DNA from: Desulfobacula toluolica Tol2
Lineage (GTDB): Bacteria; Desulfobacterota; Desulfobacteria; Desulfobacterales; Desulfobacteraceae
DNA length: 64,000 bases
Direction of reading: 5' to 3'
Assembly: GCF_000307105.1 (NCBI RefSeq)
Contig: NC_018645.1
Coordinates: 2,379,501 to 2,443,500 of the forward strand
Shown here: piece after piece, positions 105 through 25,453 of the stretch
Layout: the number at the start of each line of letters is the position of its first letter
Position numbering within the stretch: position 1 is the stretch's first letter
Notes under the pieces: model-generated
The model's input: only the letters and a program-made list of their open reading frames with translations
What the model was told of the DNA's origin: nothing
Databases searched by the model: none
Made by a program: the position numbers and the translations under genes

Positions 105-155
105 GGAATTGAACAATGATGATACGGCTTAATCTGCCGCGCAGCGGCTTACTTG

Positions 156-278
156 AACAGGCGGGTGAACCGGACAGCAAGGGTCTCCTTCTTTTTAACG
201 GTTGAAAAAACTTTTGAATGATGTGCTTTCAATTAACTTTTTTGGTAACCCTTGCTGCCCGTTACCCAAGCGTTGGGG
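156..278 (+). repeat. attC site 1
   Basis: Integron recombination site running from the R'' AAC (156-158) to R' GTTGGGG (272-278). The outer arms GGGTGAACCGGACAGCAAGGGT and ACCCTTGCTGCCCGTTACCC are complementary except for two extrahelical bases and one mismatch, the arrangement that lets IntI recognise the folded bottom strand. The bases before AAC have been replaced by IS91-like copy A. Confidence 0.85.
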
Positions 279-7326: not shown

Positions 7327-7638
7327 AACAAATAAAGGATTAGTAACCGTGCCGAGGCACGAGGCTCGGTACTAATCCTATGGTTCAAGAAGCCGCGGAT
7401 CAATAGGGGGAAAGGTTAACGATTTGCTGGATGTGTTTATGACAAGATGTGATTAAAATATCAAAAGATGGCCTTTATCCTGATGTAAAAATCAAAATTC
7501 AGGTCGTTTTCAGCCCTTAAAACCCAGGTCAAAAATTAAAATACCGTCAATTTGGCGTACGGATACTGAAGCATGTCGATAGTCATTTATCAGGCTGTTT
7601 TTAAAGTCGAGCAACACCGGGTAGTCAGTTTTGTGAAG

Positions 7639-8724
7639 TTATCCGGGCCTGCCTCTTGGTTCCGGCTTTGCAAAGAAAATAAATTTCAAATCATGCCCGC
7701 AATGGCTGCATTTAATACCCGGTATTTCAAGTTCCGGGATTTTAATAAAAAGAGCAATAATGTCATGGATGAATGAGATGAGTTCACGGATTTTTTCTAT
7801 GGACAATGCGCTGTTGGGATTGAGAAATCCATAATGTCTAATTTTCATAAACCCTTTGGGAAGAACATGCTGCAAGAACCGTCGGATAAACTCCATGGCA
7901 TCCAATGCCATAGTTTTCCACTTCTTTTTTTCACGGTCTTTATATAAAAATTTGATGACGCCATTTTCAATGCTTTTAATACGATTATTGGAGATGGCAA
8001 CCCGGAACAAATATCTTGAAAGATAGCGCAGGGAATTTTGTCCCTGCGCCACGGCCTGGCTGTCAATCACCCATTGCTGTTTCCATACTGCGGAATCAAT
8101 TTTATCGAGCAGCCCGGCTTTTTTTATGGCATCTTTGAATTTGGCTTTAAAAATGACCGCCAGAGGTTTTGTGTGAACAAACAGATCCTGTCTGGAAGAA
8201 AGCCATTGGTCATTATCAGATAAAGCACCTCCGGGAATTATTATATGCAAATGTGGATGATACTGAAGCATGCCGCCCCATGTGTGGAGGGCTGCCAGAT
8301 ATCCGATTCGATCAGATCCGATAAACCGTGTATCTTGTGCCAGTTTTTTCAGGGCTTCATTGGTGCATGAAAACAGGGCACCATAAGATAATTTTTGATG
8401 AGACCTTACAACATCCCGCAGGCCCTGGGGAAGTGTAATGGTTAACAGGAAATAATAGGTCGGCAGCAGCTTTTTCATCTGCTGATCCAGCCATTGGTCC
8501 GCTTTACTCTGCTGACAGTTGGGACAATGACGATTGCCGCAGCAGCAGTGAATAAAATGCAGATTACGGCAGTCATCACATTCATACACCATTGTTCCAA
8601 AGGAACCCTTTCTGCAGGCACTGATATCCCGTATGGTTTTTTTATGAGACTTCGGCATTCGATCTCCATAAAGTGTCAGATATTTCGGCCCATACATTTG
8701 GAAGATTTTTTGAACAGCACTCAT
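7639..8724 (-). CDS. IS91-family HUH transposase, copy B
   Basis: 361 residues. An N-terminal zinc-binding region has Cys clusters (CDDC at 49-52, CCCGNRHCPNC at 60-70). The HUH metal site is HPHLH at 156-160. The catalytic tyrosine candidates are Y234 and Y238 in RYLSRYLFR. A C-terminal CSHCGHD may bind a second zinc. The family nicks one strand and moves by rolling-circle replication. The start overlaps the upstream recombinase stop by four bases (ATGA), indicating translational coupling. This copy has Leu in SRYLFR where copies C-E have Val. Confidence 0.92.
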   Translation of the reverse strand: MSAVQKIFQMYGPKYLTLYGDRMPKSHKKTIRDISACRKGSFGTMVYECDDCRNLHFIHCCCGNRHCPNCQQSKADQWLDQQMKKLLPTYYFLLTITLPQGLRDVVRSHQKLSYGALFSCTNEALKKLAQDTRFIGSDRIGYLAALHTWGGMLQYHPHLHIIIPGGALSDNDQWLSSRQDLFVHTKPLAVIFKAKFKDAIKKAGLLDKIDSAVWKQQWVIDSQAVAQGQNSLRYLSRYLFRVAISNNRIKSIENGVIKFLYKDREKKKWKTMALDAMEFIRRFLQHVLPKGFMKIRHYGFLNPNSALSIEKIRELISFIHDIIALFIKIPELEIPGIKCSHCGHDLKFIFFAKPEPRGRPG

Positions 8725-9596
8725 GACAACACCCCCTGCATGACTTTGGAAACTTTGTCATTGGAATCAACTTGGGCCTGTGTGGTTACATGCAGATAAA
8801 TCATGGTGCTTTTAAGGGTTTTATGGCCTAATATTTTTTGCACATGGCGTATGGGGATATTAGCTTCCAGCAAATGCGTCGCATAGGCATGGCGGAAGAT
8901 ATGAGGGTGAACATGTTTTTTAAACTTCAGGCGTTTCAAAGTAGATCGCAAAACGCCTTGAACCCCACTGTCACTGACATGATTTTTGGCATATTGAGCG
9001 TCCTTACCGCCATTGCGGCCCAAAGCAGGGAATATCCATTTTGAATTACGATGGGTTTTATAGTATTTGCGCAACGTCAACAGGGTTATTTTGGGTAAAG
9101 GCACCGTCCTGTCCATGGCACCCTTTCCACCGTGAATATGCACAAGTCCCCTGTCGGAAAGAATATCTTTGACCTGAAGTGTTGTTGCCTCCCTTAAACG
9201 CAGTCCCATGGAATATAATGTCAAATAAAATGCATGACTTTGCACAGTGGGAAGGGCATAAATAATCTTTCTGACTTCCTCCAGACTCAGAATAGTCGGT
9301 AAGGTCTGCTCACGCTTCCATTTGATGTCGTTGAAAATGTTCCAGGACCGGACCAGCGTTTTGGTAAAAAAATGCTGAATACCAGAGTAACTGATCCGCA
9401 GAGTAGCAGCGCTCCAGCCGAATTCATTCTGGCAGCAAAGCCAGTATTGACGGAGCTGTTCTTCAGTGATATCTTCTAATGGTTTATTGTAAAAGCGATG
9501 TAGTCTTAAAACCGAACTGGTATAGGATTGAATGCTCCTTTTTGCATAACCGGCAAGTTGGAGATCTTCTTTAAAACGTTTGATTAAATTGCTCAT
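8721..9596 (-). CDS. Tyrosine recombinase of IS91-like element, copy B
   Basis: 291 residues with a SAM-like core-binding N-terminus (about 1-85) and a catalytic domain: R133 in GLRLRE, K158 in HGGKGAMDR, H232-xx-R235 in HPHIFRH, H258 in LGHKTL and nucleophile Y267 in MIYLHV. All catalytic residues are present, so it should be active. Its job in the element is unknown; resolving co-integrates or helping target choice are possibilities. Some IS91-family members are known to carry such a gene. The start ATG is inside the leader hairpin at 9588-9673. Ile in HPHIFRH is Val in the other copies. Confidence 0.92.
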   Translation of the reverse strand: MSNLIKRFKEDLQLAGYAKRSIQSYTSSVLRLHRFYNKPLEDITEEQLRQYWLCCQNEFGWSAATLRISYSGIQHFFTKTLVRSWNIFNDIKWKREQTLPTILSLEEVRKIIYALPTVQSHAFYLTLYSMGLRLREATTLQVKDILSDRGLVHIHGGKGAMDRTVPLPKITLLTLRKYYKTHRNSKWIFPALGRNGGKDAQYAKNHVSDSGVQGVLRSTLKRLKFKKHVHPHIFRHAYATHLLEANIPIRHVQKILGHKTLKSTMIYLHVTTQAQVDSNDKVSKVMQGVLS

Positions 9597-9673
9597 GGTA
9601 TCTTCCTTTTTTCTTTAACCTTGTCGGGTGAAGATACCGACCTGCAAGCCGGTAACAAGATACCATGAGCAAT
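9588..9673 (-). promoter_or_regulatory. Leader hairpin covering the start codon of the tyrosine recombinase
   Basis: The 17-base arms ATTGCTCATGGTATCTT (9588-9604) and its exact complement (9657-9673) are separated by 52 bases. In the mRNA the downstream arm contains the int ATG and lies next to its AAGGA ribosome site, so pairing would block translation. A shorter competing pairing exists: GGTATCTTC at 9597-9605 with GAAGATACC at 9630-9638. This gives two mutually exclusive folds, an arrangement that could act as a switch. It is present in all five copies. Confidence 0.55.
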
Positions 9674-9724
9674 GGAATTGAACAATGATGATACGGCTTA
9701 ATCTGCCGCGTAGCGGCTTACTTG

Positions 9725-9850
9725 AACAAAACGCTGCAGCTGACCGGGGGGAGCTAGCGGCTCTTTGAACGTGCTTGGTTTTAGAAAAAACTTGGCTTTT
9801 AGAAAGTGCTCGGCTATATGCCCCCCGGCCAGCTGAGCTCCCCGTTATAT
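9725..9850 (+). repeat. attC site of a second type
   Basis: AAC (9725-9727), then CGCTGCAGCTGACCGGGGGG near the start, pairing with CCCCCCGGCCAGCTGAGCTCC at the end with an extrahelical G. R' is GTTATAT (9844-9850). The sequence differs from the common attC of this array, but its target AAC was still used by the same intron and IS91-like element. Confidence 0.75.
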
Positions 9851-9882
9851 TCAGATTCAACAACCTTAGAAATGGAGAAACA

Positions 9883-10182
9883 ATGTCAAATCGAATTACA
9901 CCTATAAAAAAAACCGTTTATGGGTTTGTAATTGCTGCAATTTTAGTTTTAGTCAATTCTGGTGTAGCCATTACAAGCCTCTCCAAATCAAGTAAAGTTA
10001 TTTCAAAACTGGCAACTATTCAGAATATCGATGAAAGAAATGAAATCACAATGAATCTGATTCAGTTCCAAGCAAACGCAAATAAGAAATTAATCATTTC
10101 TTCGATAACATCTGTTGCTGTAATTTTATTAACTGGCACAATGATTGGGCGTGCATTAATTGCGACAGAGAAGAAAAGTTAA
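9883..10182 (+). CDS. Small cassette-encoded protein with two transmembrane segments
   Basis: 99 residues. ATG 9883 is preceded by GGAGAAACA, a good ribosome site. Hydrophobic segments at about 11-32 (VYGFVIAAILVLVNSGVAI) and 69-92 flank a polar loop rich in Ser, Lys and Asn. The two-TM layout with an extracytoplasmic loop resembles a minimal sensor or chemoreceptor N-terminus, but there is no HAMP or signalling domain, and no family is recognised. It is the only gene of its cassette, whose R'' box is occupied by IS91-like copy C. Confidence 0.6.
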   Translation: MSNRITPIKKTVYGFVIAAILVLVNSGVAITSLSKSSKVISKLATIQNIDERNEITMNLIQFQANANKKLIISSITSVAVILLTGTMIGRALIATEKKS

Positions 10183-10531
10183 ATGAGATATGAGATAATT
10201 CATCAGCCATTTTGAATATAACAAATAAAGGATTAGTAACCGTGCCGAGGCACGAGGCTCGGTACTAATCCTATGGTTCAAGAAGCTGCGGATCAATAGG
10301 GGGAAAGGTTAACGATTTGCTGGATGTGTTTATGACAAGATGTGATTAAAATATCAAAAGATGGCCTTTATCCTGATGTAAAAATCAAAATTCAGGTCGT
10401 TTTCAGCCCTTAAAACCCAGGTCAAAAATTAAAATACCGTCAATTTGGCGTACGGATACTGAAGCATGTCGATAGTCATTTATCAGGCTGTTTTTAAAGT
10501 CGAGCAACACCGGGTAGTCAGTTTTGTGAAG

Positions 10532-11617
10532 TTATCCGGGCCTGCCTCTTGGTTCCGGCTTTGCAAAGAAAATAAATTTCAAATCATGCCCGCAATGGCT
10601 GCATTTAATACCCGGTATTTCAAGTTCCGGGATTTTAATAAAAAGAGCAATAATGTCATGGATGAATGAGATGAGTTCACGGATTTTTTCTATGGACAAT
10701 GCGCTGTTGGGATTGAGAAATCCATAATGTCTAATTTTCATAAACCCTTTGGGAAGAACATGCTGCAAGAACCGTCGGATAAACTCCATGGCATCCAATG
10801 CCATAGTTTTCCACTTCTTTTTTTCACGGTCTTTATATAAAAATTTGATGACGCCATTTTCAATGCTTTTAATACGATTATTGGAGATGGCAACCCGGAA
10901 CACATATCTTGAAAGATAGCGCAGGGAATTTTGTCCCTGCGCCACGGCCTGGCTGTCAATCACCCATTGCTGTTTCCATACTGCGGAATCAATTTTATCG
11001 AGCAGCCCGGCTTTTTTTATGGCATCTTTGAATTTGGCTTTAAAAATGACCGCCAGAGGTTTTGTGTGAACAAACAGATCCTGTCTGGAAGAAAGCCATT
11101 GGTCATTATCAGATAAAGCACCTCCGGGAATTATTATATGCAAATGTGGATGATACTGAAGCATGCCGCCCCATGTGTGGAGGGCTGCCAGATATCCGAT
11201 TCGATCAGATCCGATAAACCGTGTATCTTGTGCCAGTTTTTTCAGGGCTTCATTGGTGCATGAAAACAGGGCACCATAAGATAATTTTTGATGAGACCTT
11301 ACAACATCCCGCAGGCCCTGGGGAAGTGTAATGGTTAACAGGAAATAATAGGTCGGCAGCAGCTTTTTCATCTGCTGATCCAGCCACTGGTCCGCTTTAC
11401 TCTGCTGACAGTTGGGACAATGACGATTGCCGCAGCAGCAGTGAATAAAATGCAGATTACGGCAGTCATCACATTCATACACCATTGTTCCAAAGGAACC
11501 CTTTCTGCAGGCACTGATATCCCGTATGGTTTTTTTATGAGACTTCGGCATTCGATCTCCATAAAGTGTCAGATATTTCGGCCCATACATTTGGAAGATT
11601 TTTTGAACAGCACTCAT
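10532..11617 (-). CDS. IS91-family HUH transposase, copy C
   Basis: 361 residues, identical to copy B except Val in SRYVFR. HPHLH and YLSRY motifs are intact. Four-base overlap with the recombinase gene upstream. Confidence 0.92.
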   Translation of the reverse strand: MSAVQKIFQMYGPKYLTLYGDRMPKSHKKTIRDISACRKGSFGTMVYECDDCRNLHFIHCCCGNRHCPNCQQSKADQWLDQQMKKLLPTYYFLLTITLPQGLRDVVRSHQKLSYGALFSCTNEALKKLAQDTRFIGSDRIGYLAALHTWGGMLQYHPHLHIIIPGGALSDNDQWLSSRQDLFVHTKPLAVIFKAKFKDAIKKAGLLDKIDSAVWKQQWVIDSQAVAQGQNSLRYLSRYVFRVAISNNRIKSIENGVIKFLYKDREKKKWKTMALDAMEFIRRFLQHVLPKGFMKIRHYGFLNPNSALSIEKIRELISFIHDIIALFIKIPELEIPGIKCSHCGHDLKFIFFAKPEPRGRPG

Positions 11618-12489
11618 GACAACACCCCCTGCATGACTTTGGAAACTTTGTCATTGGAATCAACTTGGGCCTGTGTGGTCACATGCAGATAAATCATGGT
11701 GCTTTTAAGGGTTTTATGGCCTAATATTTTTTGCACATGGCGTATGGGGATATTAGCTTCCAGCAAATGCGTCGCATAGGCATGGCGGAAGACATGAGGG
11801 TGAACATGTTTTTTAAACTTCAGGCGTTTCAAAGTAGATCGCAAAACGCCTTGAACCCCACTGTCACTGACATGATTTTTGGCATATTGAGCGTCCTTAC
11901 CGCCATTGCGGCCCAAAGCAGGGAATATCCATTTTGAATTACGATGGGTTTTATAGTATTTGCGCAACGTCAACAGGGTTATTTTGGGTAAAGGCACCGT
12001 CCTGTCCATGGCACCCTTTCCACCGTGAATATGCACAAGTCCCCTGTCGGAAAGAATATCTTTGACCTGAAGTGTTGTTGCCTCCCTTAAACGCAGTCCC
12101 ATGGAATATAATGTCAAATAAAATGCATGACTTTGCACAGTGGGAAGGGCATAAATAATCTTTCTGACTTCCTCCAGACTCAGAATAGTCGGTAAGGTCT
12201 GCTCACGCTTCCATTTGATGTCGTTGAAAATGTTCCAGGACCGGACCAGCGTTTTGGTAAAAAAATGCTGAATACCAGAGTAACTGATCCGCAGAGTAGC
12301 AGCGCTCCAGCCGAATTCATTCTGGCAGCAAAGCCAGTATTGACGGAGCTGTTCTTCAGTGATATCTTCTAATGGTTTATTGTAAAAGCGATGTAGTCTT
12401 AAAACCGAACTGGTATAGGATTGAATGCTCCTTTTTGCATAACCGGCAAGTTGGAGATCTTCTTTAAAACGTTTGATTAAATTGCTCAT
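11614..12489 (-). CDS. Tyrosine recombinase of IS91-like element, copy C
   Basis: 291 residues, all catalytic residues present (R133, H232, R235, H258, Y267), with HPHVFRH in place of HPHIFRH. Confidence 0.92.
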   Translation of the reverse strand: MSNLIKRFKEDLQLAGYAKRSIQSYTSSVLRLHRFYNKPLEDITEEQLRQYWLCCQNEFGWSAATLRISYSGIQHFFTKTLVRSWNIFNDIKWKREQTLPTILSLEEVRKIIYALPTVQSHAFYLTLYSMGLRLREATTLQVKDILSDRGLVHIHGGKGAMDRTVPLPKITLLTLRKYYKTHRNSKWIFPALGRNGGKDAQYAKNHVSDSGVQGVLRSTLKRLKFKKHVHPHVFRHAYATHLLEANIPIRHVQKILGHKTLKSTMIYLHVTTQAQVDSNDKVSKVMQGVLS

Positions 12490-12566
12490 GGTATCTTCCT
12501 TTTTTCTTTAACCTTGTCGGGTGAAGATACCGACCTGCAAGCCGGTAACAAGATACCATGAGCAAT
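12481..12566 (-). promoter_or_regulatory. int leader hairpin, copy C
   Basis: Same 17-base arms and spacing as at 9588-9673, covering the int ATG at 12489. Confidence 0.5.
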
Positions 12567-12617
12567 GGAATTGAACAATGATGATACGGCTTAATCTGCC
12601 GCGTAGCGGCTTACTTG

Positions 12618-12740
12618 AACAGGCGTGTGAACCGGACAGCAAGGGTCTCATTCTTTTTAAAGGTTGGAAAACTTTTAAATGATGTGCTTTCAATCGACTT
12701 TTTTTGGAAACCCTTGCTGCCCGTTACCCAAGCGTTGGAA
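12618..12740 (+). repeat. attC site split by IS91-like copy C
   Basis: AAC 12618-12620, R' GTTGGAA 12734-12740. Common arm sequence with GCGTGTGAACC in place of GCGGGTGAACC. Confidence 0.85.
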
Positions 12741-12788
12741 AGCCTCCTTGCCGATTTTGAGCTATTGTACTATGCAATCATTTTTAGC

Positions 12789-12817
12789 TTGCACATGCAA
12801 TCATTATGCGCTATCAT
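12789..12817 (+). promoter_or_regulatory. Promoter of hicAB (first pair)
   Basis: TTGCAC (12789-12794), 17-base spacer, TATCAT (12812-12817). The expected start of transcription falls at or next to the hicA ATG at 12824, so the message would be leaderless. The direct repeat ATGCAATCATT occurs at about 12774 and 12795, the second within the spacer, and is a candidate HicB operator. Confidence 0.55.
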
Positions 12818-12823
12818 ATTAGC

Positions 12824-13078
12824 ATGAAAACAAAACACCAAAAAACTTTGGCAACAATTTTCACTGACCCTGTAAATGGGAATATGGAATGGAACAAGAT
12901 TGAGGCGCTTCTTATCGCACTTGGTTGCCGAGTTATTGAGGGAGCAGGATCAAGCGTTACCTTTGAGAAAAAAGGCATTCGAGCATATTTTCACAGACCA
13001 CATCCTGAGAAGGAAGCTTTGAGGTATCGCATTAAGGATGCTCGTGAATTCATAAAGAAAATAGGAGAGACACCATGA
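12824..13078 (+). CDS. hicA: HicA-like mRNA-interferase toxin
   Basis: 84 residues (MKTKHQKTLATIFTDP...). The small double-stranded-RNA-binding fold of HicA is suggested by WNKIEALLIALGCRVIEGAGSSVTFEKKG and the HRPHPEKEA segment bearing the His typical of the family. ATG 12824 is preferred over 12806, which would lie upstream of the predicted -10 box. It overlaps hicB by four bases (ATGA), standard for toxin-first hicAB operons. The toxin cleaves mRNA when HicB is degraded. Confidence 0.85.
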   Translation: MKTKHQKTLATIFTDPVNGNMEWNKIEALLIALGCRVIEGAGSSVTFEKKGIRAYFHRPHPEKEALRYRIKDAREFIKKIGETP

Positions 13079-13410
13079 AAGGGATGAATCATAAAGGCTA
13101 TTTCGCCAAAGTTGAATTTGACTCTGAGGATCATATCTTTGTCGGCCATATTATTGGCATCCGTGATATTGTTGGTTTTCATGGTGAATCTGTCACCGAG
13201 TTGGAAACAGCCTTTCAAGAGGCAGTTGACAACTACCTTGCTGCCTGTAACGAACTTGGCCAAGAGCCTAACAAGCCATATTCCGGCAATCTTATGCTAA
13301 GAATTCCTTCCGAGATACATGCGGCAGTGGCTTCTGCAGCAGAAGCCAGCGGTAAAAGCATTAACCAGTGGGCGGCTGGAGTTCTGGAGAAAGAAAGTCA
13401 CGCCCATTAA
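13075..13410 (+). CDS. hicB: HicB-like antitoxin
   Basis: 111 residues. The N-terminal partly degraded RNase H-like HicB fold (YFAKVEFDSEDHIFVGHIIGI...FHGESVTELETAFQEAVDNYL) neutralises HicA. The C-terminal ribbon-helix-helix stretch (LMLRIPSEIHAAVASAAEASGKSINQW) should bind the operator. Translationally coupled to hicA. Confidence 0.88.
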   Translation: MKGMNHKGYFAKVEFDSEDHIFVGHIIGIRDIVGFHGESVTELETAFQEAVDNYLAACNELGQEPNKPYSGNLMLRIPSEIHAAVASAAEASGKSINQWAAGVLEKESHAH

Positions 13411-13562
13411 TTTTCCAAGAGACTCAAGCTTATAGCTTCTAAGTACTCGAACATAAGTTCCGTCCTCTACATAGCAAGGGATTCCGCCGATTGAGAGGCC
13501 TTCTTCCAAGCTGAAATCGGAAAAAATTTTAGTCCAGGTGCTTAAGTGGTTCCTGCATTTCC
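13411..13562. other. Cassette tail with possible reversed gene fragment
   Basis: On the minus strand one frame reads FSLEEGLSIGGIPCYVEDGT and on to KLESLGKL without stops, looking protein-like, but it has no own stop before running antisense into hicB and no start. It may be the C-terminal remnant of a gene lost when intron 3 entered, or chance. No function proposed. Confidence 0.3.
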
Positions 13563-15493: not shown

Positions 15494-15615
15494 AACAGGC
15501 GGGTGAACCGGACAGCAAGGGTCTCATTCTTTTTAAAGGTTGAAAAACTTTTCAATGGTGTGCTTTCAATCGACTTTTTTGGAAACCCTTGCTGCCCGTT
15601 ACCCAAACGTTGGGG
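15494..15615 (+). repeat. attC site with intron 3 at its R'' box
   Basis: AAC 15494-15496, R' GTTGGGG 15609-15615. Confidence 0.85.
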
Positions 15616-16009
15616 GCAACCTACTATCAATTTTAAAGCGACCGACGTAAAAACAGACAGATTGAACCGTTTGAAGATTTTTCAGCATGTAGGATTCAAA
15701 ATGCAATTTCATAGAAAATCCTTATCCTACCGGGTGTTTCAGTTTAAAAAGGATCATTGATTTTGTTTTGAATTTAACGAGGTTATTCAGTTCAAGGAAT
15801 TTACCGATAGCACCCTACCCTGCTTTGCCTATCTTTTCTTCAACAATTCCAAATAAATTTGCGAGGGAGAGTTCTTCCGAACGCAAGCCTCAAAAATAGA
15901 ATCTTCCAAAAGAGTCATATTTTACAGAATATCACAGCTTCAATCAGCAACCATCCGATGAATATATGCCCATTGACCTTTTTAAAAAAAATAGAAACAT
16001 CGGTGCCCC
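15616..16009 (+). other. ORF-less integron cassette (cassette 8)
   Basis: No credible gene in 394 bp. Related to cassettes 1-3 and 12: it begins with the ACCGACGTAAAAACAGACAG variant of the shared 5' segment, carries the CTTCCAG...TTATCCTACCGGGTG repeat near 15690-15750 and a second copy near 15866-15932, and ends with ATTGACCTTTTTAAAAAAAATAG...GTGCCCC, the same tail as cassettes 1 and 2. Possibly a structured RNA cassette. Confidence 0.55.
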
Positions 16010-17940
16010 ATCGGGATAGGACCCCCCATCACTGAGGAGCCCTCCCACACCACCGGACATACGGATCGCGTATCCGGCGGTTCGGCTGATCAGGCAGATT
16101 AGTTCCCGGGCAGAAATAATCCAAGAGAAAGGAAATATTTGTTTGGCAGAGCCATGACAACCCATTTAACCCTGCTCATGCGCCAGTGTTTCTTGCGGGA
16201 ATTTCCGCAAGTGACGGCATATTGAAACGGTATGCCTCGTTTAAGCAGGTTCCGGATTTTCGTTCCGGGATTTTTCCACTGTTTCCATACAACACATCTC
16301 AAGCGGCGGATAATCCAGCCGTTCAAGGACTTGAATATGTGTCTTGCTTCGGTGAGACAGTAATAATTCCACCATCCCCTGATGTACATATTCAATTTAT
16401 CAATGATCTGGGGAAGACTTAGACCACAGTTCCGGTTTGTTAATTCTCGAACCCTTTCTTTGAAGCGCTCGATTGTTTTCCGGTGTATGCGGATCTTGGT
16501 CTTGCCGCACATACTGATAAATGTGTAGCCGAGAAATTTGTCCAGCCATGGTCGGCTGACCTTGCTTTTCTCTTCATTGACCTTGAGCCTGAGCTTTACG
16601 GTTATAAACCGTGTAACACTTTTCATAACACGTTCGGCCGCTTTCTTGCTCTTGAGATATATGACAAAGTCATCAGCGTATCTGACAAATTTATGCCCTC
16701 TTTTCTCCAACTCTTTATCCAGTTCATCCAAAACGATATTTGAGATCACTGGTGAAAGAGGGCCGCCTTGAGGAGTTCCTTCAGCGGCAGATACAACCAC
16801 CCCGTCGATCATGACACCGGCTGTTAAGTAACTTCGGATAAGCTTGAGAACCCGCTTATCCTTTATTCTTTCAGCCAGACGGCTCATGAGGCGGTCATGG
16901 TTCACTCTGTCGAAAAATTTGGAAAGATCCATATTAACAGAGTGTGTATATCCTGAGAGCAGATAAACTTTGCCTTGGAGTATGGCATCATGCTGGGATC
17001 TTCCAGGTCTGAATCCATGACTGGACTCAGAAAAATGCGGGTCCCATATTTGCTGCAATATCTCGCTGACGGCTTGCTGGATCAAACGATCCAAAACTGT
17101 TGGAATGCCGAGCAGTCTTACTCCGCCATCGGGTTTAGGAATTTCTTTCCTTTTCACCGGTAATGGCTTGTAGTTTCCCTGCAGCAACTTTCCCTTAACT
17201 TTGGGCCAGTGGCGTCTGAGGTAACCCGGTAGTTGATCAACGGTCATGTTGTCGATTCCAGGTGCCCCTTTGTTGCTACGGACCCTTTTTAATGCTCTGA
17301 ACATGTTTCCCCTTTCAAGGATAAACTCCATGAGTCGGGAACTTTCTGTCGGACTTTCGGTGATCTGTAACGCTGTGAACATTTCCATCTGCTGTGGCAA
17401 TATGTCCATAAGTATACACCTCCTATTTGTCTCTATCATTTACCCGTACCATTCGGTCCGGGCACCGTTCGGGCCTTCACCGGGGTGAGTCCTCCGTGGA
17501 ATTCACGGCTCGTTTTCCTGCGGCTACTATGCCCTCTGCTGACTTCTTCCATGCGGTCGGAGCAGGTTACCCTGCCCTCAGCCAATTTCTGCCGCACGCG
17601 GCATCCCAGGGCAGCATGGAAGATCTCCCGGGGTAAAACACACGTCTTTCAATACGTGGGTGCCGAGTATACGGACATTGCCTATAATGGATAGAGGACT
17701 TTACCTTGTGTTGCAGGCTCGTCCCGCAAATGCACGCCTAACTCGATTTCTGTACGTCACCCCGTACTTTTGTGCCACTCCGCCTCGGCGAAGCCACTGC
17801 CTTCCGGAGTACCGTCACCGGGACCCCGTTGTGATAACACTATGCCCTTCGCCTCCATCTGGCTGGGCTTGGGACTTGCCTTGACTTCCATAAAGGAAGA
17901 TGCAGGCTCACCCTTAAGACGTGTGCCGTGCCCGGCACAC
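16010..17940 (-). mobile_element. Group IIC (attC-type) intron, copy 4 (left member of a triple stack)
   Basis: 1931 bp. Its left flank GTGCCCC is the native RYYY end of an R'' box, while its right neighbour is directly another intron (CACAC|ATCGGG). If each new insertion uses the same 5' exon, this is the oldest of the three. Alleles: GTGACGG, TTGAGATC. Confidence 0.93.
16099..17409 (-). CDS. ltrA: Group II intron reverse transcriptase/maturase, copy 4
   Basis: 436 residues, majority protein sequence, all motifs intact. Confidence 0.93.
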   Translation of the reverse strand: MDILPQQMEMFTALQITESPTESSRLMEFILERGNMFRALKRVRSNKGAPGIDNMTVDQLPGYLRRHWPKVKGKLLQGNYKPLPVKRKEIPKPDGGVRLLGIPTVLDRLIQQAVSEILQQIWDPHFSESSHGFRPGRSQHDAILQGKVYLLSGYTHSVNMDLSKFFDRVNHDRLMSRLAERIKDKRVLKLIRSYLTAGVMIDGVVVSAAEGTPQGGPLSPVISNIVLDELDKELEKRGHKFVRYADDFVIYLKSKKAAERVMKSVTRFITVKLRLKVNEEKSKVSRPWLDKFLGYTFISMCGKTKIRIHRKTIERFKERVRELTNRNCGLSLPQIIDKLNMYIRGWWNYYCLTEARHIFKSLNGWIIRRLRCVVWKQWKNPGTKIRNLLKRGIPFQYAVTCGNSRKKHWRMSRVKWVVMALPNKYFLSLGLFLPGN

Positions 17941-19871
17941 ATCGGGATAGGACCCCCCATCACTGAGGAGCCCTCCCACACCACCGGACATACGGATCGC
18001 GTATCCGGCGGTTCGGCTGATCAGGCAGATTAGTTCCCGGGCAGAAATAATCCAAGAGAAAGGAAATATTTGTTTGGCAGAGCCATGACAACCCATTTAA
18101 CCCTGCTCATGCGCCAGTGTTTCTTGCGGGAATTTCCGCAAGTGATGGCATATTGAAACGGTATGCCTCGTTTAAGCAGGTTCCGGATTTTCGTTCCGGG
18201 ATTTTTCCACTGTTTCCATACAACACATCTCAAGCGGCGGATAATCCAGCCGTTCAAGGACTTGAATATGTGTCTTGCTTCGGTGAGACAGTAATAATTC
18301 CACCATCCCCTGATGTACATATTCAATTTATCAATGATCTGGGGAAGACTTAGACCACAGTTCCGGTTTGTTAATTCTCGAACCCTTTCTTTGAAGCGCT
18401 CGATTGTTTTCCGGTGTATGCGGATCTTGGTCTTGCCGCACATACTGATAAATGTGTAGCCGAGAAATTTGTCCAGCCATGGTCGGCTGACCTTGCTTTT
18501 CTCTTCATTGACCTTGAGCCTGAGCTTTACGGTTATAAACCGTGTAACACTTTTCATAACACGTTCGGCCGCTTTCTTGCTCTTGAGATATATGACAAAG
18601 TCATCAGCGTATCTGACAAATTTATGCCCTCTTTTCTCCAACTCTTTATCCAGTTCATCCAAAACGATATTTGAAATCACTGGTGAAAGAGGGCCGCCTT
18701 GAGGAGTTCCTTCAGCGGCAGATACAACCACCCCGTCGATCATGACACCGGCTGTTAAGTAACTTCGGATAAGCTTGAGAACCCGCTTATCCTTTATTCT
18801 TTCAGCCAGACGGCTCATGAGGCGGTCATGGTTCACTCTGTCGAAAAATTTGGAAAGATCCATATTAACAGAGTGTGTATATCCTGAGAGCAGATAAACT
18901 TTGCCTTGGAGTATGGCATCATGCTGGGATCTTCCAGGTCTGAATCCATGACTGGACTCAGAAAAATGCGGGTCCCATATTTGCTGCAATATCTCGCTGA
19001 CGGCTTGCTGGATCAAACGATCCAAAACTGTTGGAATGCCAAGCAGTCTTACTCCGCCATCGGGTTTAGGAATTTCTTTCCTTTTCGCCGGTAATGGCTT
19101 GTAGTTTCCCTGCAGCAACTTTCCCTTAACTTTGGGCCAGTGGCGTCTGAGGTAACCCGGTAGTTGATCAACGGTCATGTTGTCGATTCCAGGTGCCCCT
19201 TTGTTGCTACGGACCCTTTTTAATGCTCTGAACATGTTTCCCCTTTCAAGGATAAACTCCATGAGTCGGGAACTTTCTGTCGGACTTTCGGTGATCTGTA
19301 ACGCTGTGAACATTTCCATCTGCTGTGGCAATATGTCCATAAGTATACACCTCCTATTTGTCTCTATCATTTACCCGTACCATTCGGTCCGGGCACCGTT
19401 CGGGCCTTCACCGGGGTGAGTCCTCCGTGGAATTCACGGCTCGTTTTCCTGCGGCTACTATGCCCTCTGCTGACTTCTTCCATGCGGTCGGAGCAGGTTA
19501 CCCTGCCCTCAGCCAATTTCTGCCGCACGCGGCATCCCAGGGCAGCATGGAAGATCTCCCGGGGTAAAACACACGTCTTTCAATACGTGGGTGCCGAGTA
19601 TACGGACATTGCCTATAATGGATAGAGGACTTTACCTTGTGTTGCAGGCTCGTCCCGCAAATGCACGCCTAACTCGATTTCTGTACGTCACCCCGTACTT
19701 TTGTGCCACTCCGCCTCGGCGAAGCCACTGCCTTCCGGAGTACCGTCACCGGGACCCCGTTGTGATAACACTATGCCCTTCGCCTCCATCTGGCTGGGCT
19801 TGGGACTTGCCTTGACTTCCATAAAGGAAGATGCAGGCTCACCCTTAAGACGTGTGCCGTGCCCGGCACAC
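17941..19871 (-). mobile_element. Group IIC (attC-type) intron, copy 5 (middle of the stack)
   Basis: 1931 bp with introns directly on both sides. Alleles GTGATGG and TTGAAATC, plus private TGCCAAGCAG and TTTCGCCGG, distinguish it from both neighbours, so it is not a simple tandem duplicate. Confidence 0.93.
18030..19340 (-). CDS. ltrA: Group II intron reverse transcriptase/maturase, copy 5
   Basis: 436 residues. Differs from the majority by Ala for Val in PLPAKRKEIPK and Ile in QYAITCGN. Motifs intact. Confidence 0.92.
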   Translation of the reverse strand: MDILPQQMEMFTALQITESPTESSRLMEFILERGNMFRALKRVRSNKGAPGIDNMTVDQLPGYLRRHWPKVKGKLLQGNYKPLPAKRKEIPKPDGGVRLLGIPTVLDRLIQQAVSEILQQIWDPHFSESSHGFRPGRSQHDAILQGKVYLLSGYTHSVNMDLSKFFDRVNHDRLMSRLAERIKDKRVLKLIRSYLTAGVMIDGVVVSAAEGTPQGGPLSPVISNIVLDELDKELEKRGHKFVRYADDFVIYLKSKKAAERVMKSVTRFITVKLRLKVNEEKSKVSRPWLDKFLGYTFISMCGKTKIRIHRKTIERFKERVRELTNRNCGLSLPQIIDKLNMYIRGWWNYYCLTEARHIFKSLNGWIIRRLRCVVWKQWKNPGTKIRNLLKRGIPFQYAITCGNSRKKHWRMSRVKWVVMALPNKYFLSLGLFLPGN

Positions 19872-21802
19872 ATCGGGATAGGACCCCCCATCACTGAGGA
19901 GCCCTCCCACACCACCGGACATACGGATCGCGTATCCGGCGGTTCGGCTGATCAGGCAGATTAGTTCCCGGGCAGAAATAATCCAAGAGAAAGGAAATAT
20001 TTGTTTGGCAGAGCCATGACAACCCATTTAACCCTGCTCATGCGCCAGTGTTTCTTGCGGGAATTTCCGCAAGTGATGGCATATTGAAACGGTATGCCTC
20101 GTTTAAGCAGGTTCCGGATTTTCGTTCCGGGATTTTTCCACTGTTTCCATACAACACATCTCAAGCGGCGGATAATCCAGCCGTTCAAGGACTTGAATAT
20201 GTGTCTTGCTTCGGTGAGACAGTAATAATTCCACCATCCCCTGATGTACATATTCAATTTATCAATGATCTGGGGAAGACTTAGACCACAGTTCCGGTTT
20301 GTTAATTCTCGAACCCTTTCTTTGAAGCGCTCGATTGTTTTCCGGTGTATGCGGATCTTGGTCTTGCCGCACATACTGATAAATGTGTAGCCGAGAAATT
20401 TGTCCAGCCATGGTCGGCTGACCTTGCTTTTCTCTTCATTGACCTTGAGCCTGAGCTTTACGGTTATAAACCGTGTAACACTTTTCATAACACGTTCGGC
20501 CGCTTTCTTGCTCTTGAGATATATGACAAAGTCATCAGCGTATCTGACAAATTTATGCCCTCTTTTCTCCAACTCTTTATCCAGTTCATCCAAAACGATA
20601 TTTGAGATCACTGGTGAAAGAGGGCCGCCTTGAGGAGTTCCTTCAGCGGCAGATACAACCACCCCGTCGATCATGACACCGGCTGTTAAGTAACTTCGGA
20701 TAAGCTTGAGAACCCGCTTATCCTTTATTCTTTCAGCCAGACGGCTCATGAGGCGGTCATGGTTCACTCTGTCGAAAAATTTGGAAAGATCCATATTAAC
20801 AGAGTGTGTATATCCTGAGAGCAGATAAACTTTGCCTTGGAGTATGGCATCATGCTGGGATCTTCCAGGTCTGAATCCATGACTGGACTCAGAAAAATGC
20901 GGGTCCCATATTTGCTGCAATATCTCGCTGACGGCTTGCTGGATCAAACGATCCAAAACTGTTGGAATGCCGAGCAGTCTTACTCCGCCATCGGGTTTAG
21001 GAATTTCTTTCCTTTTCACCGGTAATGGCTTGTAGTTTCCCTGCAGCAACTTTCCCTTAACTTTGGGCCAGTGGCGTCTGAGGTAACCCGGTAGTTGATC
21101 AACGGTCATGTTGTCGATTCCAGGTGCCCCTTTGTTGCTACGGACCCTTTTTAATGCTCTGAACATGTTTCCCCTTTCAAGGATAAACTCCATGAGTCGG
21201 GAACTTTCTGTCGGACTTTCGGTGATCTGTAACGCTGTGAACATTTCCATCTGCTGTGGCAATATGTCCATAAGTATACACCTCCTATTTGTCTCTATCA
21301 TTTACCCGTACCATTCGGTCCGGGCACCGTTCGGGCCTTCACCGGGGTGAGTCCTCCGTGGAATTCACGGCTCGTTTTCCTGCGGCTACTATGCCCTCTG
21401 CTGACTTCTTCCATGCGGTCGGAGCAGGTTACCCTGCCCTCAGCCAATTTCTGCCGCACGCGGCATCCCAGGGCAGCATGGAAGATCTCCCGGGGTAAAA
21501 CACACGTCTTTCAATACGTGGGTGCCGAGTATACGGACATTGCCTATAATGGATAGAGGACTTTACCTTGTGTTGCAGGCTCGTCCCGCAAATGCACGCC
21601 TAACTCGATTTCTGTACGTCACCCCGTACTTTTGTGCCACTCCGCCTCGGCGAAGCCACTGCCTTCCGGAGTACCGTCACCGGGACCCCGTTGTGATAAC
21701 ACTATGCCCTTCGCCTCCATCTGGCTGGGCTTGGGACTTGCCTTGACTTCCATAAAGGAAGATGCAGGCTCACCCTTAAGACGTGTGCCGTGCCCGGCAC
21801 AC
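19872..21802 (-). mobile_element. Group IIC (attC-type) intron, copy 6 (right member, next to the attC)
   Basis: 1931 bp. Its 5' exon on the minus strand is the R'' sequence CCGCCTGTT, so it would be the last to arrive. Alleles GTGATGG with TTGAGATC form a combination unlike either neighbour. Confidence 0.93.
19961..21271 (-). CDS. ltrA: Group II intron reverse transcriptase/maturase, copy 6
   Basis: 436 residues, Ile for Val in QYAITCGN, otherwise the majority protein. Confidence 0.92.
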   Translation of the reverse strand: MDILPQQMEMFTALQITESPTESSRLMEFILERGNMFRALKRVRSNKGAPGIDNMTVDQLPGYLRRHWPKVKGKLLQGNYKPLPVKRKEIPKPDGGVRLLGIPTVLDRLIQQAVSEILQQIWDPHFSESSHGFRPGRSQHDAILQGKVYLLSGYTHSVNMDLSKFFDRVNHDRLMSRLAERIKDKRVLKLIRSYLTAGVMIDGVVVSAAEGTPQGGPLSPVISNIVLDELDKELEKRGHKFVRYADDFVIYLKSKKAAERVMKSVTRFITVKLRLKVNEEKSKVSRPWLDKFLGYTFISMCGKTKIRIHRKTIERFKERVRELTNRNCGLSLPQIIDKLNMYIRGWWNYYCLTEARHIFKSLNGWIIRRLRCVVWKQWKNPGTKIRNLLKRGIPFQYAITCGNSRKKHWRMSRVKWVVMALPNKYFLSLGLFLPGN

Positions 21803-21925
21803 AACAGGCGGGTGAACCGGACAGCAAGGGTCTCCTTCTTTTTAAAGGTTGAAAAAACTTTTGAATGATGTGCTTTCAATCAATTTTTTTGGAAACCCTT
21901 GCTGCCCGTTACCCAAGCGTTGTAC
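21803..21925 (+). repeat. attC site with stacked introns 4-6 at its R'' box
   Basis: AAC 21803-21805, R' GTTGTAC 21919-21925. Confidence 0.85.
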
Positions 21926-21973
21926 CCCAATTACACATGGCAGCCAGTGTGGAGATATGTCAAGATTTTTTGC

Positions 21974-22002
21974 TTGAAACGGTTACAAAAAAGACCTATA
22001 AT
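21974..22002 (+). promoter_or_regulatory. Promoter of the Phd/RelE cassette
   Basis: TTGAAA (21974-21979), 17 bases, perfect TATAAT (21997-22002). AAGACCTA occurs at 21991-21998 and again at 22003-22010, straddling the -10 box, and is a candidate site for autorepression by the antitoxin. Confidence 0.6.
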
Positions 22003-22039
22003 AAGACCTAAATATCAACCATTATTAATGGAGGTCTTT

Positions 22040-22291
22040 ATGGAGGCCGTATTAGCTAACTGTTCAGCAAGTATTTCTGAGTTAAAGAAAAACCCCTCAG
22101 CATTGATTGACGCATCAGGCGGAGAACCCATTGCTATCTTAAACCACAACAAACCAACCGCTTACTTGATCCCAGCCGACACCTATCAGCAAATCCTTGA
22201 TAGGTTGGAGGATTATGAACTCGGACTGATCGTTAAAGAGCGTGAACATGAGAAAGCCCAGGCCATTGAGGTAGATATCAATGAGCTATAA
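22040..22291 (+). CDS. Phd/YefM-family antitoxin
   Basis: 83 residues (MEAVLANCSASISELKKNPS...). The N-terminal DNA-binding and dimerising fold shows SISELKKNPSALIDASGGEPIAILNHNKPTAYLIP; the acidic C-terminal helix would wrap the toxin. The start at 22040 follows GGAGGT at 22030-22035; an ATG at 22028 overlaps that site and is less likely. It overlaps the toxin gene by 11 bases. Confidence 0.88.
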   Translation: MEAVLANCSASISELKKNPSALIDASGGEPIAILNHNKPTAYLIPADTYQQILDRLEDYELGLIVKEREHEKAQAIEVDINEL

Positions 22292-22565
22292 ACTAAAGTT
22301 TCTCCCAACGGCTCTGAAGGAATGGAAGAAGCTGGATAATTCTATTTTGGCGCAATTCAGGAAGAAACTGAAAGAGTGTTTGGAGGTACCTCATGTACCC
22401 TCCGGTAAGCTTTCCGGCTTTGAGAATCATTACAAAATCAAACTTAGGGCCAGTGGGTATCGACTTGTGTATGAAGTGATCGATCAAGAATTGTTCGTCC
22501 TTGTTGTTGCTGTTGGAAAAAGAGAAAAAGGTGCTGTGTATGAAAAAGCACGAGACAGATCATGA
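22281..22565 (+). CDS. relE: RelE-family toxin
   Basis: 94 residues (MSYKLKFLPTALKEWKKLDN...). The ParE/RelE fold is seen in the KLKFLPTALKEWKKLD start, the YKIKLRASGYRLVYEVIDQ central strand with basic catalytic residues, and the VLVVAVGKREKGAVY end. Predicted to cleave mRNA on the ribosome. Its TGA overlaps an ATG opening a third, broken gene. Confidence 0.9.
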   Translation: MSYKLKFLPTALKEWKKLDNSILAQFRKKLKECLEVPHVPSGKLSGFENHYKIKLRASGYRLVYEVIDQELFVLVVAVGKREKGAVYEKARDRS

Positions 22566-22870
22566 ACTCAAATAAAGCCTCCCGAGAGAAGCTAATAAAA
22601 AACCTTGGTGGATACGATGGTAGCACCGGACCCTCTTAAGCTGCAAAAGCCGAAATTTTTGCAAGTTGCGTTGAAGATCTTATAAACTCTATTGACAAAA
22701 ATTCCGAAAAAAGTAGTCTGCTAAGCAGGATCCTTATTTGGCTGAATGTCATTTTGGCTATTGCGACACTGGCATTGGCAATTATTGCCGGAACAGATCT
22801 GTATTTGTGCATTCAGGGGGTTGGCAGCTTTCACCAAAGCACTCAGATTTCTACAGATGTGAGCAAATAG
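22562..22870 (+). pseudogene. Third gene of the Phd/RelE operon, small membrane protein with in-frame stop
   Basis: The ATG overlaps the relE stop (ATGA). The frame reads MNSNKASREKLIKNLGGYDG and, after a TAA at 22637-22639 (codon 26), continues without break for 77 codons to TAG at 22868-22870. The later part has a coiled or helical region (EIFASCVEDLINSIDKNSEK) and one strong membrane segment (ILIWLNVILAIATLALAII). The intact frame on both sides of one stop suggests a recent nonsense mutation. Function unknown. Confidence 0.6.
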
Positions 22871-23004
22871 TGGTCTATTTGCTTGATACCGTTCTGCTTC
22901 AACTTTTTGGTATTCCTCTGCAAGTCTTGGTCGATTAATGAAAAATTGAACTTAAATCAATGAGTTGTTGAATTATTTAATTTCTCCTTATGCGAGGGTA
23001 CAAC
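22871..23004. other. Cassette tail, no gene
   Basis: About 130 bp with no gene, ending GTACAAC, the R'' box into which IS91-like copy D inserted. Confidence 0.5.
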
Positions 23005-23313
23005 AAATAAAGGATTAGTAACCGTGCCGAGGCACGAGGCTCGGTACTAATCCTATGGTTCAAGAAGCTGCGGATCAATAGGGGGAAAGGTTAACGATTT
23101 GCTGGATGTGTTTATGACAAGATGTGATTAAAATATCAAAAGATGGCCTTTATCCTGATGTAAAAATCAAAATTCAGGTCGTTTTCAGCCCTTAAAACCC
23201 AGGTCAAAAATTAAAATACCGTCAATTTGGCGTACGGATACTGAAGCATGTCGATAGTCATTTATCAGGCTGTTTTTAAAGTCGAGCAACACCGGGTAGT
23301 CAGTTTTGTGAAG

Positions 23314-24399
23314 TTATCCGGGCCTGCCTCTTGGTTCCGGCTTTGCAAAGAAAATAAATTTCAAATCATGCCCGCAATGGCTGCATTTAATACCCGGTAT
23401 TTCAAGTTCCGGGATTTTAATAAAAAGAGCAATAATGTCATGGATGAATGAGATGAGTTCACGGATTTTTTCTATGGACAATGCGCTGTTGGGATTGAGA
23501 AATCCATAATGTCTAATTTTCATAAACCCTTTGGGAAGAACATGCTGCAAGAACCGTCGGATAAACTCCATGGCATCCAATGCCATAGTTTTCCATTTCT
23601 TTTTTTCACGGTCTTTATACAAAAATTTGATGACGCCATTTTCAATGCTTTTAATACGATTATTGGAGATGGCAACCCGGAACACATATCTTGAAAGATA
23701 GCGCAGGGAATTTTGTCCCTGCGCCACGGCCTGGCTGTCAATCACCCATTGCTGTTTCCATACTGCGGAATCAATTTTATCGAGCAGCCCGGCTTTTTTT
23801 ATGGCATCTTTGAATTTGGCTTTAAAAATGACCGCCAGAGGTTTTGTGTGAACAAACAGATCCTGTCTGGAAGAAAGCCATTGGTCATTATCAGATAAAG
23901 CACCTCCGGGAATTATTATATGCAAATGTGGATGATACTGAAGCATGCCGCCCCATGTGTGGAGGGCTGCCAGATATCCGATTCGATCAGATCCGATAAA
24001 CCGTGTATCTTGTGCCAGTTTTTTCAGGGCTTCATTGGTGCATGAAAACAGGGCACCATAAGATAATTTTTGATGAGACCTTACAACATCCCGCAGGCCC
24101 TGGGGAAGTGTAATGGTTAACAGGAAATAATAGGTCGGCAGCAGCTTTTTCATCTGCTGATCCAGCCACTGGTCCGCTTTACTCTGCTGACAGTTGGGAC
24201 AATGACGATTGCCGCAGCAGCAGTGAATAAAATGCAGATTACGGCAGTCATCACATTCATACACCATTGTTCCAAAGGAACCCTTTCTGCAGGCACTGAT
24301 ATCCCGTATGGTTTTTTTATGAGACTTCGGCATTCGATCTCCATAAAGTGTCAGATATTTCGGCCCATACATTTGGAAGATTTTTTGAACAGCACTCAT
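23314..24399 (-). CDS. IS91-family HUH transposase, copy D
   Basis: 361 residues, same protein as copy C (SRYVFR). HUH and Tyr motifs intact. Confidence 0.92.
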   Translation of the reverse strand: MSAVQKIFQMYGPKYLTLYGDRMPKSHKKTIRDISACRKGSFGTMVYECDDCRNLHFIHCCCGNRHCPNCQQSKADQWLDQQMKKLLPTYYFLLTITLPQGLRDVVRSHQKLSYGALFSCTNEALKKLAQDTRFIGSDRIGYLAALHTWGGMLQYHPHLHIIIPGGALSDNDQWLSSRQDLFVHTKPLAVIFKAKFKDAIKKAGLLDKIDSAVWKQQWVIDSQAVAQGQNSLRYLSRYVFRVAISNNRIKSIENGVIKFLYKDREKKKWKTMALDAMEFIRRFLQHVLPKGFMKIRHYGFLNPNSALSIEKIRELISFIHDIIALFIKIPELEIPGIKCSHCGHDLKFIFFAKPEPRGRPG

Positions 24400-25271
24400 G
24401 ACAACACCCCCTGCATGACTTTGGAAACTTTGTCATTGGAATCAACTTGGGCCTGTGTGGTCACATGCAGATAAATCATGGTGCTTTTAAGGGTTTTATG
24501 GCCTAATATTTTTTGCACATGGCGTATGGGGATATTAGCTTCCAGCAAATGCGTCGCATAGGCATGGCGGAAGACATGAGGGTGAACATGTTTTTTAAAC
24601 TTCAGGCGTTTCAAAGTAGATCGCAAAACGCCTTGAACCCCACTGTCACTGACATGATTTTTGGCATATTGAGCGTCCTTACCGCCATTGCGGCCCAAAG
24701 CAGGGAATATCCATTTTGAATTACGATGGGTTTTATAGTATTTGCGCAACGTCAACAGGGTTATTTTGGGTAAAGGCACCGTCCTGTCCATGGCACCCTT
24801 TCCACCGTGAATATGCACAAGTCCCCTGTCGGAAAGAATATCTTTGACCTGAAGTGTTGTTGCCTCCCTTAAACGCAGTCCCATGGAATATAATGTCAAA
24901 TAAAATGCATGACTTTGCACAGTGGGAAGGGCATAAATAATCTTTCTGACTTCCTCCAGACTCAGAATAGTCGGTAAGGTCTGCTCACGCTTCCATTTGA
25001 TGTCGTTGAAAATGTTCCAGGACCGGACCAGCGTTTTGGTAAAAAAATGCTGAATACCAGAGTAACTGATCCGCAGAGTAGCAGCGCTCCAGCCGAATTC
25101 ATTCTGGCAGCAAAGCCAGTATTGACGGAGCTGTTCTTCAGTGATATCTTCTAATGGTTTATTGTAAAAGCGATGTAGTCTTAAAACCGAACTGGTATAG
25201 GATTGAATGCTCCTTTTTGCATAACCGGCAAGTTGGAGATCTTCTTTAAAACGTTTGATTAAATTGCTCAT
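24396..25271 (-). CDS. Tyrosine recombinase of IS91-like element, copy D
   Basis: 291 residues, same protein as copy C, with a complete catalytic set. Confidence 0.92.
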   Translation of the reverse strand: MSNLIKRFKEDLQLAGYAKRSIQSYTSSVLRLHRFYNKPLEDITEEQLRQYWLCCQNEFGWSAATLRISYSGIQHFFTKTLVRSWNIFNDIKWKREQTLPTILSLEEVRKIIYALPTVQSHAFYLTLYSMGLRLREATTLQVKDILSDRGLVHIHGGKGAMDRTVPLPKITLLTLRKYYKTHRNSKWIFPALGRNGGKDAQYAKNHVSDSGVQGVLRSTLKRLKFKKHVHPHVFRHAYATHLLEANIPIRHVQKILGHKTLKSTMIYLHVTTQAQVDSNDKVSKVMQGVLS

Positions 25272-25348
25272 GGTATCTTCCTTTTTTCTTTAACCTTGTC
25301 GGGTGAAGATACCGACCTGCAAGCCGGTAACAAGATACCATGAGCAAT
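25263..25348 (-). promoter_or_regulatory. int leader hairpin, copy D
   Basis: Same inverted 17-base arms over the int ATG at 25271. Confidence 0.5.
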
Positions 25349-25399
25349 GGAATTGAACAATGATGATACGGCTTAATCTGCCGCGTAGCGGCTTACTTG

Positions 25400-25453
25400 A
25401 ACCAGTCGTTCCACCGGACTCGCTGAGGCTCGCCGGTGAACTTAACGTTCGCC
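25400..25453 (+). repeat. Short attC site (third type)
   Basis: About 54 bp: AAC, then TCCACCGGACTCGC, a TGAG loop, GCTCGCCGGTGAA and R' GTTCGCC (25447-25453). It resembles the compact ~60-bp attC sites common in mobile integrons. Confidence 0.7.

Follow-up and report, generated by a model that had tools for sequence, protein, structure and literature searches.

Copies of an IS91-like element in an integron array

The window analysed here is a 64,000-nucleotide stretch of the complete genome of Desulfobacula toluolica Tol2 (5,197,905 bp; NC_018645.1, positions 2,379,501 to 2,443,500), and its subject is a two-gene insertion sequence (IS) related to IS91, present in four full copies (A to D) and the right end of a fifth (E). 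The surrounding cassette array belongs to a canonical integron: the integrase gene intI (405 bits) lies on the minus strand at 2,358,238, about 20 kb left of the window, and the attC sites of the array point away from it; the position of intI gives an independent orientation of the array in this genome. The main-type attC occurs at 38 places in the genome, including 14 in the window, where all are on the plus strand. The copies and their flanks, in window coordinates, are as follows.

1-158, minus strand: right (ter) end of copy E, the remainder of which lies left of the window (locus L009, 17258-19658)
159-274, plus strand: attC remainder right of copy E, R' GTT at 272
7330-9727, minus strand: copy A, 2398 bp, with target AAC at 7327-7329; a group IIC intron forms its left flank
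7330-7398, plus strand: ori-side end of copy A, AAATAAAGG, a hairpin, then GTTCAAGAAGCCGCGG at 7383-7398
7639-8724, minus strand: transposase of copy A, 361 amino acids, IS91 family (Y2_Tnp, Zn_Tnp_IS91)
8721-9596, minus strand: tyrosine recombinase of copy A, 291 amino acids, XerA/IntI-like, with a 4-base overlap with the transposase start
9704-9727, plus strand: ter-side end of copy A, TGCCGCGTAGCGGCTTACTTGAAC, conserved in relatives
9728-9846, plus strand: attC remainder of copy A, stem and R' GTT at 9844
10216-10222, plus strand: R'' ATATAAC of the attC into which copy B is inserted, complementary to GTTATAT at 9844, where its own cassette begins
10223-12620, minus strand: copy B, transposase 10532-11617, recombinase 11614-12489
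12621-12736, plus strand: attC remainder of copy B, R' GTT at 12734
23005-25402, minus strand: copy C, transposase 23314-24399, recombinase 24396-25271; GTACAAC at 22998-23004
25403-25449, plus strand: attC remainder of copy C, short type, R' GTT at 25447
55506-57903, minus strand: copy D, at a non-attC GCGAAC site in another group II intron; transposase 55815-56900, recombinase 56897-57772

The element encodes the recombinase and the transposase on one strand. Measured from the target AAC to the end of its own CTTGAAC, its length is 2398 bp, and the other eight full genome copies are 99.46-99.79% identical to copy A. With the ori side at left and carets at the junctions, its ends read AAC^AAATAAAGGATTAG-hairpin ... 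TGCCGCG(T/C)AGCGGCTTACTTGAAC^. Distinct ori and ter ends with hairpins are typical of the IS91 family, and the ends were compared in relatives. The transposase scores well above the curated cut-off for the IS91 equivalog (NF033538, 355.6 bits; cut-off 125), matches PF04986 (Y2_Tnp, 186.5 bits) and the zinc domain PF14319 (Zn_Tnp_IS91, 89.5 bits), and carries HLH (HUH) and YLSRY (double tyrosine) motifs. Among full-length relatives, loose patterns find an HUH-like motif in 63/65 and a YxxxY-like motif in 62/65.

For the recombinase, the integron integrase model TIGR02249 is the second-best curated match, at 151 bits against the 265 required; the nine full copies align at model positions 2-181 and 203-304, leaving 181-203 unmatched. 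By the curated model, then, this protein is conserved with the element yet is not an integron integrase. The ori side also holds an inverted copy of the ter end (window 7383-7398), with a similar GTTCAAG in many of the listed ori ends, and this is perhaps a candidate protein binding site.

Insertion directly after the R'' AAC of attC

A profile search finds Y2_Tnp at 11 places in the genome, namely nine full transposases and two fragments. All nine full copies follow the same junction rules, with AAC at both junctions. To the right of the element's own GAAC, the remainder of an attC follows in A, B, C, E, F, G, and I and not in D; the sequence right of copy H is probably an attC remainder as well. 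An automatic hairpin test, described below, is positive for A, B, C, E/F (one merged flank), G, and I, and for a remnant in locus L012, so that seven genome copies lie directly after the R'' AAC of an attC. Copy H (L014) is attC-like by eye only (P = 0.33), and copy D, at a plain GCGAAC, is negative (P = 0.86).

The exact insertion point is given by attC sites of the same array that are split by group IIC introns. Intron-only attC sites of the main type read CACAC^AACAGGCGG or CACAC^AACCAGCGG. Since the intron-split attC thus reads AACAGGCGG or AACCAGCGG, the element inserts exactly after the R'' AAC, with no sign of target duplication. Judging from these sequences, the left AAC is the target's and the right AAC the element's own.

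Counting both strands, the window contains 2118 AAC sites; strong attC R'' sites number 14 (the short attC of copy C falls below the cut). These 14 strong R''-hairpin sites, which overlap with but differ from the 14 main-type attC places of the window, comprise three split by the element, eight split by an intron alone, and three split by neither. Assuming 200 attC sites in this genome, the chance of finding 8/9 copies at attC (counting H) is about 3e-23.

The first-pass annotation, made from the sequence of the window, had described much of this pattern, and its observation extends beyond the window to the nine full genome copies and to relatives in several phyla. In the window, four of five copies (E, A, B, and C) do lie between the R'' AAC and the attC stem, and copy D does not; the orientation is single, as described, and the AAC on both sides is true of all nine genome copies. 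The insertions hit three attC sequence types, as described, and assignment to the IS91-family HUH transposases agrees with the profile matches and motifs above. The element length, given there as 2395 bp, is corrected here.

Some copies are related through their flanks or are incomplete. Copies C and I have at least 2 kb of left flank in common (99.8%; window 20995-23004, L011 5037-7040), and their right attC sites differ, which suggests recombination between copies. Diverged element remnants, 86-92% identical to copy A, occupy 7396-12766 of L012, where there are extra solo ori ends, two of them adjoining AAC. A shortened copy at L011 13463-14039 has an intact ori end at CCGAAC and breaks off after 577 bases.

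Relatives in other genomes

Relatives were collected from 97 related genomes, from 395 genomes of the phylum by means of the ter pattern, and from the best 80 of 369 relatives in a GTDB contig scan. The ter pattern occurs at 37 places in 16 of the 395 genomes, and its reversed control at none. After identical flanks were merged and one 2-base flank (L113) was dropped, 78 flanks were available. Each was scored for an AAC-stem-GTT hairpin against dinucleotide shuffles; an initial version of the score, whose null came from the loci themselves, had been dropped, as these loci are full of real attC sites.

The hairpin test is positive in 43/78 flanks; an earlier run with other shuffles gave 45/78, two borderline flanks having switched. 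A free-stem test, which does not demand the GTT, adds four flanks, for a total of 47 attC flanks. Among control AAC(A/C) sites within elements, 18/400 are positive, a rate that covers the hairpin test alone; one or two of the four free-stem additions are possibly due to chance (5% level).

Frequencies were calculated on the 67 flanks with a recombinase match (most also with a transposase match) beside the element end. An attC is present at the junction in 45/67 distinct flanks, including 17/20 at 60% identity or more (10/11 when other genomes only are considered), 24/43 at 40-60%, and 4/4 at 30-40%, where identity refers to the transposase or, if that match is absent, to the recombinase. The counted attC flanks include the second one of L092, which is a solo ter fragment with a full copy some 700 bases away, and L190, whose place among the four at 30-40% depends on a recombinase fragment of 118 amino acids. 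The 11/78 flanks excluded for having no transposase or recombinase match are four of genome G346, three of G377, two of G143, L183, and L185; two of the 11 were called attC (L183 and L187). Seven of these 11 have fewer than 800 bases on the element side, so the absence of genes there means little. Overall, the preference for attC is strong and not absolute.

A search for intI was positive in 14/21 other genomes. In a tree built from 77 transposases, of which 42 carry a label, insertions at attC and elsewhere are interspersed across a single supported set of 63 rows (98/97). By their record names, these rows belong to Thermodesulfobacteriota, Nitrospirota, Verrucomicrobiota, Kiritimatiellota, Planctomycetota, Pseudomonadota, and Rokubacteria, with some rows labelled Myxococcota, although the taxon of single contigs from metagenome-assembled genomes may be wrong. 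The attC labels change nine times on the tree, compared with a mean of 12.3 when shuffled; as few changes occur in 11/500 shuffles, meaning that the labels are somewhat clustered. On this evidence, attC targeting looks old within the group. A plasmid search for close relatives gave 1591 records, none of which reached 60% identity, the top one among the 40 listed being 36.5%.

One genome, G346, holds five copies of the ter sequence. Its four examined flanks (L149, L172, L177, and L178) are unrelated and non-attC; L177 has more than 3 kb on the element side with no transposase or recombinase match, while the other flanks are cut short. These copies are perhaps non-autonomous elements.

Target motif and strand

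The flanks yield the target pattern AAC^(A/C)-N6-T-N2-A. Among the 47 attC flanks (two of them without protein evidence), position +1 is A or C in 47, +2 is A in 38, +8 is T in 45, +11 is A in 44, +16 is A in 37, and +17 is C in 30. The letters from +1 to +17 are common to attC sites generally, so the informative set is the insertions without attC.

That set comprises 14 clear non-attC insertions and four copies from G042, a distant relative (31-33% identity); eight flanks that are attC-like by eye were excluded from it. T at +8 together with A at +11 is found in 8/18 (P = 7e-5, against a rate of 0.088 measured inside elements), and singly A+11 is present in 12/18 and T+8 in 11/18. The combination also occurs in 13/31 of all hairpin-negative flanks and in 6/22 of a stricter set (P = 0.0035). 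By contrast, there is no enrichment at +16 and +17, both part of the attC stem, in a wider set of 26 non-attC flanks, some without protein evidence. Retention of T+8/A+11 without a hairpin, with no enrichment at +16/+17, points to linear reading of the R''-spacer-L'' sequence.

Among the 33 ori ends, AAC is preceded by T or C in 27 and by G in six, so the GAAC/CAAG tetranucleotide rule of IS91 does not describe this target. AAC itself was part of the pattern by which those 33 ends were found; it is seen independently in the 9/9 genome copies and in the compared copies of Pontiella (three), G042 (four), and G067 (two). The mostly YAAC target is a variant of the IS91 rule and not another mechanism.

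By the base composition beside the core, the attC insertions fit R''. Across the 43 hairpin-positive flanks, AAC is followed by A in 24 and by C in 19, and a C precedes the called R' GTT in 41/43, so an insertion at R' would read AAC-G. Judged by these bases, no insertion at R' (RYYYAAC on the other strand) is found among the attC flanks. The strand that reads AAC and then the element is the attC top strand, and IntI uses the attC bottom strand (PMC8266576).

Bottom-strand folds were compared with the original R'' and with the element end in its place. For copies B, C, and F the two energies are nearly the same; the element end lowers the energy from -10.7 to -12.1 for I and from -5.6 to -5.9 for H. 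Copy H shows no clear attC hairpin in these folds with either sequence.

A probable attC-specialised IS91 sub-group and its alternatives

We consider it probable, at roughly 0.72, that these elements form an attC-specialised IS91 sub-group ("IS91-attC") that moves by rolling-circle transposition with its HUH enzyme, the target having been extended from GAAC to the R''-L'' part of attC. The HUH/Y2 transposase would nick the target strand after AAC in 5'-(R)YYYAAC^(A/C)A-N5-T-N2-A, on the attC top strand, and the ori end (AAC^NNNTAAGG plus hairpin) would be joined at the nick. Copying would then stop at the ter hairpin and the following CTTGAAC, which would put AAC back before the attC stem. The IS91 model, in which ori abuts the target AAC and ter ends in the same letters, explains both junctions; by analogy with it, the order of the rolling-circle steps, the strand that is nicked, and the reading of the target by the transposase rather than by the co-encoded recombinase would follow. 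The recombinase may help in targeting, resolve intermediates, or do something else.

Several results weigh against this interpretation. T+8 and A+11 are general attC letters, and within attC they are no proof of reading by the transposase. Without G042, whose register was set by the AAC rule, the two letters are found together in 5/14 non-attC sites, a modest signal (P = 0.0054). The free-stem test is passed by only 26/43 of the hairpin-positive flanks, and 22/67 flanks fail the automatic attC test, of which eight are attC-like or half-site-like by eye and 14 are not. Four genomes with clear non-attC insertions (G200, G368, G397, and G463) do have intI, so these insertions are not all explained by a lack of integrons. 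Complementarity between the left R'' and the right R', tried as proof of a split attC and rejected, is weak (1.76 compared with 1.43 when shuffled, SD 0.17, 25 pairs), as expected if R' belongs to the next cassette. Lastly, the junction product does not distinguish rolling-circle transposition from recombination of a circle at GTT.

This last point bears on an alternative that we find unlikely, in which attC is recognised by the XerA/IntI-like recombinase, or by the host IntI, which would either recruit the transposase or itself integrate a circular form at the GTT/AAC core. A circle recombined within GTT would leave identical junctions; a recombinase match, in some cases partial, is present on the element side in 67/67 flanks, and integron integrase is its second-best curated match. 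Moreover, A+11 corresponds to an extrahelical base used by IntI. However, the protein scores below the integron integrase cut-off, with a stretch of the model unmatched, and G042 has the same kind of recombinase, yet 0/4 of its insertions pass the attC test. Six plasmid relatives (29-33% identity) also carry the recombinase, and the two of their ter ends that were read by eye differ. To our knowledge, IS91 itself has no recombinase gene. IS801, which is listed as having a single coding sequence, follows a GAAC-type rule (PMC3189936).

Recognition of a folded attC, as a cruciform or a single-strand hairpin, with sequence conservation as a by-product, appears quite improbable. HUH enzymes often bind hairpins (PMC8266576), and a significant AAC-stem-GTT hairpin accompanies 43/78 flanks. 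However, the polarity of insertion corresponds to the top strand, not to the bottom strand active with IntI; the R' side of the same hairpin is unused, judged by the flanking bases; and the T+8/A+11 preference persists without a hairpin. As these two letters are enriched at insertions without an attC hairpin, linear top-strand reading of R''-L'' fits better than a folded bottom strand.

That arrays are merely safe and abundant targets with many AAC sites is scarcely credible, even though integron arrays tolerate insertions and copies C and I are not independent on their left side: the counts of AAC and strong R'' sites in the window already contradict it, and the copies are found precisely at the R'' base and in a single orientation, as are most relatives in other genomes.

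As for the interpretation in the first-pass annotation, attC as a preferred target stands. Homologous copies elsewhere do not sit mostly at plain AAC or GAAC sites, which was named there as the outcome that would reduce the bias to local abundance; 45/67 flanks are at attC, here and in relatives. The folded bottom strand suggested as substrate is not favoured by the top-strand polarity at R'' and the linear T+8/A+11 signal, and the GAAC/CAAG target is replaced by mostly YAAC.

Relation to known systems

The element resembles IS91, IS801, and IS1294 in its Y2 HUH transposase with a zinc domain, its ori and ter ends with hairpins, an AAC-type target that abuts ori with the same letters at ter, and no sign of target duplication. 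The targets given are GAAC for IS91 (PMC8768599) and GAAC, GGAC, CAAG, or CGAC for IS801 (PMC3189936), whereas the element does not follow GAAC/CAAG alone: its target is mostly YAAC, with a T/A pattern further downstream that is typical of attC. It also differs from the family in the tyrosine recombinase gene upstream of the transposase, with its 4-base overlap.

Literature searches, with most subscription journals and ISfinder outside their scope, returned no attC-specific IS91 element. The nearest case is the IS91-like ISShvi3 of Shewanella sp. Choline-02u, described as lying directly beside an attC in a new cassette structure (PMC9229058). The likeness is by description, and ISShvi3 is a single case; its authors state that no IS was found to interrupt an attC site, and the text consulted proposes no attC specificity.

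Two other kinds of element are aimed at attC. The IS1111-attC group (IS110 family) uses a DEDD transposase and a guide RNA (PMC11187229), and by its profile matches the present transposase, being of the HUH and not the IS110-type DEDD kind, does not belong there. Group IIC-attC introns are also attC-specific, and this array contains them at the adjacent position CACAC^AAC; they are retroelements that split R'' before AAC, whereas the element splits it after. The element and the introns either share these sites or compete for them.

Group IIC introns of 1931 bp stand head to tail at window 16010-21802 (three) and 29697-33558 (two), with joints CACAC^ATCGGG. At three places (window 7326/7327, L009 17257/17258, and L066 at about 4508) an intron end abuts the AAC before the ori end of an element, and the ori hairpin followed by TTTATTTGTT on the other strand may itself be an intron target. 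Copy D lies inside a second kind of group II intron (RF02005, window 57832-58085). Elsewhere in the genome, a second integron integrase (366 bits; G000 C1:3035682-3036611) lies far from the first, and more main-type attC places are found near 3.07-3.09 Mb and 3.61-3.64 Mb.

Implications for integrons and the IS91 family

AAC is restored upon insertion, and the fold energy is practically unchanged in 3/5 copies and lower in 2/5, so the attC may remain usable, and the upstream cassette would then carry the element. We hold as tentative, at somewhat less than even odds, a wider scenario in which ancient HUH transposons spanning phyla read linear R''-L'', leave attC foldable, become part of a cassette that IntI can move, and so make transposon and integron mutual vehicles.

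Integrons move many accessory genes, and the described mobile elements that aim at attC are of two kinds, IS1111-type elements and group IIC introns. If a chemically unrelated third kind exists across several phyla, attC would be a general landing site. As IS91-type elements can carry neighbouring DNA, an attC-specific group could provide a way for genes to enter and leave cassette arrays, and it would offer a natural test of how an HUH transposase gains a long target.

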